Origin: Petrachloros mirabilis ULC683
Lineage (GTDB): Bacteria; Cyanobacteriota; Cyanobacteriia; Thermosynechococcales; Thermosynechococcaceae
Assembly: GCF_009939295.1 (NCBI RefSeq)
Contig: NZ_WVIC01000029.1
Location: forward strand, 1 to 57,581
Length of the DNA stretch: 57,581 bases
Direction of reading: 5' to 3'
This document shows positions 5,980-53,342 of this stretch, one piece after another; position 1 is the first letter of the stretch, and each line of letters starts with the position of its first letter. The translations under genes were made by a program, and so were the position numbers. The notes beneath the pieces were generated by a model. That model saw nothing but the letters and a program-made list of their open reading frames with translations, was not told the DNA's origin and searched no databases.

Positions 5980-8478
5980 CTAAGCCACAATTTTTTCATC
6001 CACTTTTTGATCCACTGGCATACGAGGTTTCTCTAGGGCTAAAGATTGTCCTTGGCTCAAAATTTTGGCTCGGTGCTTGAGGTGGCGCTGATAGAAAAAG
6101 TTGTTGAGCTTTTGCTCTAACCCGCCCAAGCACTTCTCTAGCCAGGTGTTGCCTCTGCCTAAGGTCAAGCGCCGAACCAGGGGTTGTACCAGCAGCTCTC
6201 GCCGTCGGTTGCCAATAATGACGTAGCGTTTTTTGAAGTAGGAGTCTTCTGCTAGGTGCCACTTCCGGCGTAGATGATCGAGACTGGCTCGATCCCAGGC
6301 GTTGCTCCAGCGCACCATGAAGTAGGGCAGGTCATACCATTTGAAGTCGGGTAAGCGGTTGGCACCAAACAATTCAATCAGTCCTGCCTTATTCTGGGCA
6401 ATGCCAACGGTATCTGTGGTGACAATGGCGGTGCGATCGCAGTAGATCTTGCCACCCGCTTCCGTGACCGACAGGCAAAAATCAATGTGCTCTCGCGTGG
6501 CCAACATGCCCTCATCGAGCAGGCCAACTTTGCCAAATACCGCCGTGCGCGCCATCAGACAGTGAAATTCCACGTAGTCGCACTGCACCCGATGCATTTG
6601 ATCTTGCACCTGGGCGATCGCTTTGCCGGTCAGGTAAGCTTTTTGGCGCAGACGACGCTTGATGCGGCCATCGGGTTTGACATCATTGAGGATATAAGTT
6701 TCACCGCCAGCATTGTGAATCACCCCATGTTCTGGCTGACCAATGCAAGTTAATGGCCCGACCACATCAGCGCCGGTTTCTGCGGCACAGTTCACCAACT
6801 GCGTCAGCCAGCCCAGCTCAACCACCACATCATTTTCAATAAAGACGACATACTCAGCGATGGCCGTCTTCAAGACCTGGCGTAGCCCCACATTTCGCGC
6901 CTGATTGGGGGAAATATAGTAGGGGGTGCGAATTAGCTTAAACCCTTTCTCTTTCGCCTGGGCGTTTAGGTAAGCTTGGATGGGGGGTGGGGTGCAGACA
7001 TCCACATAGACCAGCTCAAAGGGATAGCGAGTATTGCGGTAAATACTTTCTAGAGAGGCTTGGGTATGACTAAATCGCTCTCGGGGGCCAACCACAATCG
7101 TGACTGTGGGTGTGGTTTGCTGATGGCAATTAAATTCAACATGAGTTTGATAGCTCTGGCCTGCCCTCACCCCAACCCCTCTCCCAACGTTGGGAGAGGG
7201 GCTATAACCTTGAATTTCTACTCTGTTCCCCCTCGCCCAGAATTGGGAGAGGGGGCTAGGGGGTGAGGGCGGAGATGTCGTCGAATTCACGCTCAATTCA
7301 GGCTCTAAAAGCCTTTGCAATCTAAGGGCAGATTCCTGGGCACCTTGCAGGTTAAAGGAGTGCGCCACGGGGGGGTGGCTGAGCGCTGTCAAAATATGTT
7401 GGGTCAGGCGCTCGGGGGCTAAATCATCGGCACCCAGCACCTGCAAAATGCCCTGACTTTCGAGCTTGCGGGCACGCAGGGTTTGTTCCCCAGACTGATC
7501 TGCTGAGGGCGATGGATAAATTAGCGATCGCACCCCGGTTTTGAGAATATTCATGGTGGTGTTATAGCCCCCCAGACTAATCGACAGATCGGCTCGCTGG
7601 AGATAATCCAGCAATCGAGGCGTAAAGCGGCGAACCACCAAGTTGGGAGTATTAGCAGCCAACCCTTGCAACTGCAAAAATTCAGCTTCGGGCAAATAGG
7701 GACCCGCAAAGGCATAGATGGTATGGGGAATGTGTTGTTTGAGGGTGGGAGCAAGGGCTGCGATCGCACCCAACAACGGATACCCATGGCGTCCCCCTCC
7801 GACGCTCACCACCAGGCTGGGTTCAGGTCGGCTCAAGTCCAGGCGATCGGCCTCGCCCAGGGGCAAAGACTCATCTATCTGCTGGGTCACCAACCCGGTA
7901 TAAAAGACCGGGCAGTGCAGCCCATCCAGCTCTGCAAAACACTCCTCTAGCCGTTGCAACTGCGGATCGGAGTGATACAAAATCAAGTCGTAATAGCGGT
8001 TAATCCACTTACAGGTTCGGGCCTGCTTTTTGGCACGGACGCTCTGGGACATGGCCTGGGTCATCATAATATCGCGCAGACAGCACACCACCTGGGTGGA
8101 GACATTCGATGCCTCAATATGCTTGAGCAGCGGCATCAGCTCAAATCGGAGCGTATGCTTACTGAACGGAAAGCCCTCAGTAATCACACAATCAGGCCGA
8201 ATTCGGTCAAAGGCTGCCAAAAGGAGCGATTTACGGCGTTCCTGAACCACTTCTAGGGGTTGAGTGGCATCCACCCCCTTCAGGACTATCCCCTCCATAT
8301 ACAGCCCAGGTAAACGCACTTCACTCACCCCAGCCGGAAGCTGAAAGCCTGGTACCGCCTGCCCTCCATGGATGAAGAACACCTGAAACTGTTGGGCAAG
8401 GCTGCGCATAATTTCAGTGCTGCGCACCAGGTGGCCAATGCCAGCGAGATGCTGGCTATAAAATAGGATCTTTTTCAT
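5980..8478 (-). CDS. Two-domain glycosyltransferase: MurG-like GT-B fused to GT2
   Basis: An 832-residue protein made of two complete enzymes. Residues 1 to about 395 form a MurG/GT28-like GT-B domain, with an N-terminal GIGHLVRS loop and a C-terminal donor site around ISLGGYNTTMNILKTG. Residues about 455-790 form a GT2 domain (VTIVVGPRER, YISPNQARNVGL, VVFIENDVV) with the same basic C-terminal helices as the GT2 gene at 1178-2380. The first domain is paralogous to the two free-standing genes immediately upstream (8533-9729 and 9726-10967). The linker, about residues 403-439, is rich in Pro, Ser, Gly and Arg and is encoded by a palindromic intergenic repeat in frame. In the GT2 half the usual DxD reads END. 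Both domains look intact, so a bifunctional enzyme is likely. Confidence 0.85.
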   Translation of the reverse strand: MKKILFYSQHLAGIGHLVRSTEIMRSLAQQFQVFFIHGGQAVPGFQLPAGVSEVRLPGLYMEGIVLKGVDATQPLEVVQERRKSLLLAAFDRIRPDCVITEGFPFSKHTLRFELMPLLKHIEASNVSTQVVCCLRDIMMTQAMSQSVRAKKQARTCKWINRYYDLILYHSDPQLQRLEECFAELDGLHCPVFYTGLVTQQIDESLPLGEADRLDLSRPEPSLVVSVGGGRHGYPLLGAIAALAPTLKQHIPHTIYAFAGPYLPEAEFLQLQGLAANTPNLVVRRFTPRLLDYLQRADLSISLGGYNTTMNILKTGVRSLIYPSPSADQSGEQTLRARKLESQGILQVLGADDLAPERLTQHILTALSHPPVAHSFNLQGAQESALRLQRLLEPELSVNSTTSPPSPPSPLSQFWARGNRVEIQGYSPSPNVGRGVGVRAGQSYQTHVEFNCHQQTTPTVTIVVGPRERFSHTQASLESIYRNTRYPFELVYVDVCTPPPIQAYLNAQAKEKGFKLIRTPYYISPNQARNVGLRQVLKTAIAEYVVFIENDVVVELGWLTQLVNCAAETGADVVGPLTCIGQPEHGVIHNAGGETYILNDVKPDGRIKRRLRQKAYLTGKAIAQVQDQMHRVQCDYVEFHCLMARTAVFGKVGLLDEGMLATREHIDFCLSVTEAGGKIYCDRTAIVTTDTVGIAQNKAGLIELFGANRLPDFKWYDLPYFMVRWSNAWDRASLDHLRRKWHLAEDSYFKKRYVIIGNRRRELLVQPLVRRLTLGRGNTWLEKCLGGLEQKLNNFFYQRHLKHRAKILSQGQSLALEKPRMPVDQKVDEKIVA
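7163..7270. repeat. In-frame palindromic repeat encoding the interdomain linker
   Basis: A 108-bp (36-codon) element inside the fused glycosyltransferase gene. It begins GCCCTCACCCCA and ends with the mirror image TAGGGGGTGAGGGC, with an inner palindrome CTCTCCCAACGTTGGGAGAG. On the coding strand it gives a linker containing SPLSQFWARG and SPSPNVGRGVGVRAG, peptides that commonly arise when such cyanobacterial intergenic repeats are translated. A degraded copy lies near 11.2 kb, and fragments are near 16.9 and 53.15 kb. The length is a multiple of three and no stop is introduced. Confidence 0.85.
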
Positions 8479-10967: not shown

Positions 10968-11170
10968 AGGCATATCCCCATAGGGACAGTAAAAGCACGA
11001 AATGTGAAGCTCTGATGAGCAACTGATGCCTACTATTCCTGATACCTTTAAGAGCCGGATGAATTTTTTATGAGAACCCCTTCATGAGAACTCATGAAAC
11101 TAAAATGAGAGGTTTCTTAACTGTCAGGTAGGCGCGATCGCCATCTTCAATTTGTGGAGTTCGACAGCTC

Positions 11171-11262
11171 TCGCCTGCGCTCACCCCAACCCCTCTGCCA
11201 ACATTACACTTTGCAGGCACACCCCGCGAGGGGCTAAAACCTTGAATTTCAGTCCTGCCTGC
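11171..11262. repeat. Degraded copy of the CTCACCCCAACCCCTCT repeat
   Basis: Part of the gene-poor gap 10974-11517. GCTCACCCCAACCCCTCTGCC matches the start of the repeat found inside the fused glycosyltransferase gene, and GAGGGGCTAAAACCTTGAAT matches its middle. The inner palindrome has been replaced and the right arm is lost, so it is a decayed copy. Apart from this and the CHAT remnant that follows, I see no gene in the gap; it should hold the promoter of the glycan cluster. Confidence 0.6.
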
Positions 11263-42544: not shown

Positions 42545-42559
42545 AATCTAGGGATTTAA

Positions 42560-42770
42560 AATCTTTGCGTTCGCCCCCCTAGCCCCCCAAGTTTGAGGGG
42601 AAATAGTCCCAGTTTTTGTTGATCTCCCCCCAGAATTGGGGGGTCGGGGGGGCTAATGCAGGGTGAAATGGGTTCATCCAGAGATGTGTGTACATCGTAG
42701 CAGAATTGGGGGGCTAGGGGGGCAAGTGCAAGGTCTAAGCAACTTCTCAAACAAGCTCTTAGGTACAGAG
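42560..42770. repeat. Family A repeat, one full copy and one half copy
   Basis: CGCCCCCCTAGCCCCCCAAG, a spacer and CTCCCCCCAGAATTGGGGGG, followed by GGGCTAATGCAGGG and a GATGTGTGTACATCGTAGC end similar to the right end of the element at 53.3 kb. A second G-rich arm (AATTGGGGGGCTAGGGGGGC) with GTGCAAGGTCTAAGC follows. They fill the 235-bp gap between the convergent methyltransferase and menA genes. Confidence 0.75.
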
Positions 42771-46716: not shown

Positions 46717-46870
46717 AGCTTGCTTGACAAGTTGCTTAGACCTTACACTCGCCCCCCTAGCCCCCCAATTTTGGGGGGAAATGGTCAGAGTTTTTGGCTT
46801 TCTCCCCCCAGAATTGGGGGGTCGGGGGGGCTAATGCAGGGATGAATGAGGCTTTTTAAACAGCCTCTTA
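46716..46870. repeat. Family A repeat, full copy
   Basis: Begins AGAGCTTGCTTGACAAGTTG right at the ycf66 stop, continues with ACACTCGCCCCCCTAGCCCC and CTCCCCCCAGAATTGGGGGG, and ends GCTTTTTAAACAGCCTCTT. Over about 80 bp (AGTTTTTGGCTTTCTCCCCC onwards) it is almost identical to the copy at 2.53 kb, so one of them moved recently. It may also terminate ycf66 transcription. Confidence 0.78.
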
Positions 46871-47069
46871 ATGTTGATGGAGGGTAGCTTACTGCAAAGC
46901 CTTCCACCCAGAGTTCTCATCCGTTGATTCACAGTCCGGCTTGCGCTCATCCCATCACAGTCATGCCATCGGTGAATAGGTGGATGACGGTCATCCTTGG
47001 GTGACCTTGAAGCCAGGGGAGCATCTCCCCGATAATGAAGAGAACGATTGCCCCATTACTTGCAAACCC

Positions 47070-53162: not shown

Positions 53163-53342
53163 GGGCTACCGTGTACATACAAGTCTTGAAAAATTCAAAA
53201 TCTTTGCACTCGCCCCCCTAGCCCCCCAATTCTGGGGGGAACTAGTTCTAACTTTCGGATTTCTCCCCCCAATTTTGGGGGGTTGGGGGGGCTAATGCAG
53301 CGTGGAACACGGAGAACTAGAGATGTGTGTACACGGTAGCCC
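53163..53342. mobile_element. Family A element with visible terminal inverted repeats
   Basis: GGGCTACCGTGTACATACA (53163-53181) and TGTGTGTACACGGTAGCCC (53324-53342) are inverted with one mismatch, enclosing the usual CCCCCCTAGCCCCCCAATT and CTCCCCCCAATTTTGGGGGG arms and GGGGGGCTAATGCAG. This 180-bp copy shows that family A can behave as a MITE. It lies between the DUF29 gene and the 3' end of the RAMP operon, a 313-bp gap without a gene. Confidence 0.78.

Follow-up and report, generated by a model that had tools for sequence, protein, structure and literature searches.

The open reading frame at positions 5980–8478 (minus strand) of the window, a 57,581-nucleotide stretch of Petrachloros mirabilis ULC683 DNA, joins two glycosyltransferases through a palindromic repeat, and the locus makes it possible to separate a repeat that caused a fusion from one that merely moved into a linker. 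The frame runs through 832 residues without a stop codon and comprises a GT28-type (MurG-like) half (residues 1–392; 7303–8478, minus strand), a linker (residues 393–454) and a GT2 half homologous from residue 455 to residue 832 (5983–7116, minus strand, stop codon not counted). Pfam places the GT28 C-terminal domain PF04101 at residues 224–370 (48 bits, gathering threshold 22) and the GT2 domain PF00535 at residues 473–576 (33.9 bits, gathering threshold 23.3). Since the GT28 half scores far under the cut-off of the MurG equivalog model, it is not MurG itself. Pairwise dN/dS values between the fused frame and its relatives are 0.02–0.12 for the two halves, with dS saturated in most comparisons.

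We predicted the structure of the fused protein with AlphaFold, using a 12-row alignment in which the stop codons of the relatives were read through. Both halves are folded in the model (mean pLDDT 75.4, pTM 0.50), and the linker between them is predicted to be disordered, with pLDDT values of 24–43 and all of residues 394–454 below 50. The simplest reading would be a single protein in which a floppy tether connects two glycosyltransferase domains, and we infer that one 832-residue product is made from the fused frame.

An earlier note on this DNA had described the fused frame with an in-frame repeat between its two enzymes, which the open frame, the Pfam matches and the genomic copies of the repeat core confirm. 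The core at 7163–7270 (minus strand), with its GCCCTCACCCC/GGGGTGAGGGC ends, lies in frame between the GT28 and GT2 domains and folds with −73.1 kcal/mol, compared with a mean of −43 for shuffled sequences (z = −8.0). A gapped pattern derived from the core ends finds 44 copies in the ULC683 genome and none in the reversed control, so the core is not a chance repeat. The note had taken these 108 bp to be the whole repeat; the core and its ends are real, but alignment of the copies extends the full repeat to 154 bp (7139–7292, minus strand), a length determined by script over 45 distinct copies, and adds an 8-bp duplication outside it. The terminal inverted repeats (TIRs) are GCGTGAATTCGA and TCAAACTCATGT in the linker copy and ACGTGAGTTCGA and TCGAACTCACGT in the family consensus. 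The element encodes residues ∼396–447 and thus most of the present linker, as had been proposed.

The element has the features of a miniature inverted-repeat transposable element (MITE). Its consensus TIRs match the ULC683 genome 53 times in the forward and 47 times in the reverse orientation (3 and 0 in the reversed control), and the paired pattern identifies 43 copies (control, 0). We inspected 45 copies, and a translated search gives about 50. The longest frame of the element is ∼50 codons, within the MITE size class (under ∼600 bp, no transposase gene), and the copies are dispersed. Target-site duplications are exact over 7 bp in 22 of the 45 copies and over 8 bp in 7; a further six copies, including that in the linker, show 6-bp, 9-bp or one-mismatch forms. 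Leaving the linker copy aside, 34 copies have a recognisable duplication of 6–9 bp, of which 29 are exact over 7 or 8 bp; in 9 or so of the 45 none was recognised, and some of these have ends shifted by a small indel. Among the solitary TIRs and the ten stretches of genome G374 that we inspected, no transposase-bearing partner or autonomous insertion sequence with matching TIRs was recognised. A degenerate second copy of the same family lies in non-coding DNA upstream of the glycosyltransferase cluster (11157–11262). At four loci (L196–L199) the element is shortened or interrupted (∼104, 146, 150 and 179 bp) and retains both TIRs intact.

The linker copy is flanked by TGAATTGA on the GT28 side (7293–7300) and TGAATTTA on the GT2 side (7131–7138), both read on the minus strand. 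The two are identical at seven of eight positions, the one differing base counting against a clean duplication. Over its 154 positions the copy shows 18 and 19 differences from the two consensus variants, and in the translated search no other full-length copy in the sense frame is as dissimilar (76% versus at least 88%); it is therefore probably an old one. These differences also bear on whether two genes were joined at the repeat by a sequencing or assembly artefact. The genome is repeat-rich and consists of 79 contigs, which would favour such an error, but a diverged copy with an intact target duplication, in flanks whose gene order agrees with that of relatives, makes it extremely improbable.

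To compare the locus with its relatives, we scanned genome contigs and further genomes for GT28 and GT2 matches on the same strand and at most 1500 bp apart, and a script counted the stop codons in the GT28 frame between the two genes. After removal of duplicate loci, roughly 30 distinct pairs remained. All of them have at least one stop between the two genes and lack the repeat core; the orthologous cluster, to which the earlier note had looked for the order of events, thus holds separate, adjacent genes. The closest pairs are those of CCP2 (L085), Kaiparowitsia (L081), J069 (L078) and D1_MAG (L079), with 73–76% identity in the GT28 half and 80–82% in the GT2 half. Open frames of around 811–906 residues in some relatives might suggest further fusions, but the adjacent pairs were checked and contain stops inside those frames. 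None of the pairs scanned is fused, and a widespread fusion is rejected. Likewise, no element-free fusion was found in the roughly 30 pairs, all of which come from other genera. At the L086/L183 and L083/L207 junctions, GT28 and GT2 are in phase and only one stop codon divides them, so that a single substitution would suffice for a read-through fusion. Another pair, from a Phycisphaerae metagenome-assembled genome (L094, JANQQK010000020.1; sample IP29b), forms a long branch amid cyanobacterial sequences, owing to either a binning error or a transfer.

In phylogenetic trees, both halves of the fused protein group with the adjacent separate pairs of CCP2, Kaiparowitsia, J069, D1_MAG and G071 (support 100/100 for GT28 and 100/99 for GT2). 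The window does contain separate genes of both kinds at 1178, 8533 and 9726, which the earlier note had regarded as the counterparts of the halves. However, these are paralogues that fall in other clades, and the trees rule them out as sources. Since the orthologues of the halves are adjacent separate genes in relatives, the fusion is, as judged from these comparisons, derived and lineage-specific, and among the loci examined it is known only from the ULC683 genome.

How the two genes were joined can be read from the junction. The GT28 stop of the four closest relatives comes 26–43 codons past the position of residue 390–392; downstream of it are a gap, a stretch resembling a ribosome site and the GT2 start. 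A junction alignment shows that the same DNA, ∼170–240 nt, is missing from the fused locus. When the element and one copy of the duplication are cut out by script, the fusion remains in frame and open, and the junction reads ...RLLEPE[L/F]NCHQQTTPTVTIVV... (NCHQQTTPTVTIVVG). The proposal that the stop and start codons were removed by the incoming repeat is therefore not supported, because excision leaves an in-frame fusion that the element did not create. Stop, gap and start went instead with the ∼170–240 nt that the four closest relatives have and the fused locus lacks. The element, which has matched target duplications and thus looks like an ordinary insertion adding 162 bp, lengthened a linker that already existed or formed at the same time. 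Recombination between two repeats is excluded as the cause of the fusion by the matching 8-bp duplications on both flanks.

We consider it fairly probable that deletion and fusion of GT28 and GT2 came first and that the element inserted into the linker second, leaving both enzymes in frame on a tether. In the ancestor, GT28 and its downstream GT2 neighbour would have lost ∼170–240 nt, comprising the GT28 tail, the stop, the intergenic gap, the ribosome site, the GT2 start and part of the GT2 leader. What remained would be a single reading frame whose linker measured about ten residues, and the 154-bp MITE-like element would then have inserted into this linker, duplicating 8 bp. Both enzymes would have stayed in frame and gained a long, disordered tether rich in Pro, Ser, Gly and Arg.

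The reverse course is unlikely. Here the element would have entered first, either between the genes or within the GT2 leader, and GT28 would have been joined to it afterwards by a deletion with one end beside the element, so that the element was already present at the fusion. This course would account for the position of the element exactly at the deletion junction, and the element owns a stop-free frame. Moreover, the TGAATTTAA motif of the duplication is also present in the GT2 leader of CCP2, although the match is short. Against this, the duplication is kept on the GT28 side, which does not fit a simple element-adjacent deletion, and the frame does not need the element. The CCP2 match itself cuts both ways: if it reflects homology, an element landing in the separate GT2 leader would be read in the CCP2 frame, in which its second codon is a stop, so that GT2 would have lost its own start before the element entered. 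Deletion before insertion is simpler for this reason and appears to be the likelier order, with the argument depending on the short leader match. An identical sequence would be expected from entry of the element into the GT2 leader and a subsequent deletion reaching to just upstream of it, and likewise from a point mutation that abolished a flanking stop once the element was in place. On the preferred order, deletion and then insertion, the repeat gave the linker its peptide but probably did not itself cause the fusion.

What allowed the insertion to be accommodated is its coding frame. Only one of the six frames of the element consensus is free of stops, and the linker copy uses exactly that frame. 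Because the element and the 8-bp duplication together add 162 bp, or 54 codons, and the element sits in its only stop-free frame, GT28 and GT2 stay in frame. The predicted tether has a Pro/Ser/Gly/Arg-rich composition. In the translated search, the linker copy lies in an 838-residue open frame and one other copy in a 339-residue frame; around all other near-full-length copies in the sense orientation, the open frames measure 51–192 residues. The open frame of the linker is at most weak evidence of selection: when we simulated element copies with 12–18 substitutions, 54–66% stayed open by chance, and the stop-free state is thus not significant. We infer that the long tether is tolerated rather than selected. 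It is quite doubtful that the element helped to create a working enzyme with both glycosyltransferase activities, in which the stop-free frame provided the tether that made the fusion workable and an internal start perhaps adds separate GT2.

The internal start in question is a GTG at residue 437 (7168–7170, minus strand), inside the element. It is preceded by a Shine–Dalgarno-like GGGAGAGGGG ∼6 nt upstream of 7170–7168 and would leave GT2 with a leader of ∼18 residues, close to the leader lengths in relatives. This GTG could supply some separate GT2. That GT2 is also or even mainly translated from it, so that two enzymes are still made from a continuous frame, is nevertheless unlikely, since the Shine–Dalgarno-like stretch sits in a 13-bp hairpin and is not itself evidence of initiation, and no stop precedes the GTG, so that ribosomes on GT28 run on into GT2.

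The 339-residue frame provides a second coding case of the element in the ULC683 genome. It encodes the molybdate permease ModB (TIGR02141, over the cut-off; L017, G000:C5:116542-119675), which an element copy at C5:118029-118182 lengthens in frame by 54 codons near the C-terminus, flanked by an exact 8-bp duplication. The fusion linker and ModB are the only 2 of 45 inspected copies that lie in frame within a clear gene.

The family is not restricted to ULC683. The ACGTGAGTTCGA/TCGAACTCACGT TIR pair occurs with differing interiors in four genomes of other cyanobacterial genera (24 copies in G003; also G031, G209 and G374; loci L223–L226 and L229–L231), and three examples in G374 have exact 7-bp duplications. 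The identical TIRs suggest that one trans-acting transposase family may mobilise all of them. The hairpin core without TIRs is widespread among relatives.

Coding MITEs are already established, and what sets this one apart is that it links two enzymes. In the accounts cited here, Rickettsia palindromic elements (RPEs; Ogata et al. 2000) are protein-coding mobile repeats inserted in frame (PMC10969869, PMC2229807). They resemble our element as palindromic mobile repeats of ∼100–150 bp with a stop-free frame, placed in frame in genes whose protein domains are kept, whereas, as described, they differ in sequence and host. As described there, RPEs are often intragenic and interrupt one protein; our element joins two enzymes, and with two clear in-frame gene cases among 45 copies it falls short of such a frequency. 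The enterobacterial repeats RU-1 (ERIC), RU-2 and RU-3 are, according to the account cited, likewise MITE-like coding repeats whose frame is fused to those of genes, usually at the C- or N-terminal ends, and one RU-1 copy apparently did away with the regular stop codon of an amidase gene (PMC2759123). Our element lies instead between two enzyme domains, with the stop loss explained by a separate deletion. The cyanobacterial MITEs Nezha and those of Anabaena, as outlined in PMC10969869, are short, TIR-bearing, multi-copy and non-autonomous; the present family shares these properties by description only and is defined by its ACGTGAGTTCGA TIR and 7- to 8-bp duplications. REP/REPIN palindromes are similarly GC-rich, high-copy hairpins, but true TIRs and duplicated target sites set our element apart. 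A limited search of the open-access literature, as far as the sources found describe their elements, revealed no case in which a coding MITE links the two enzymes of a fusion.

Protein-coding MITEs are known mainly as internal or terminal inserts of individual proteins, whereas here one forms the tether between enzymes that all relatives checked encode separately. Since the target duplications let the empty site be inferred, the locus is a clean, testable case of mobile repeats lengthening interdomain linkers. The window additionally contains a second family of palindromic repeats of ∼100–150 bp with CCCCCC...GGGGGG cores, at 2511–2608, 42554–42701, 46732–46879 and 53193–53340.
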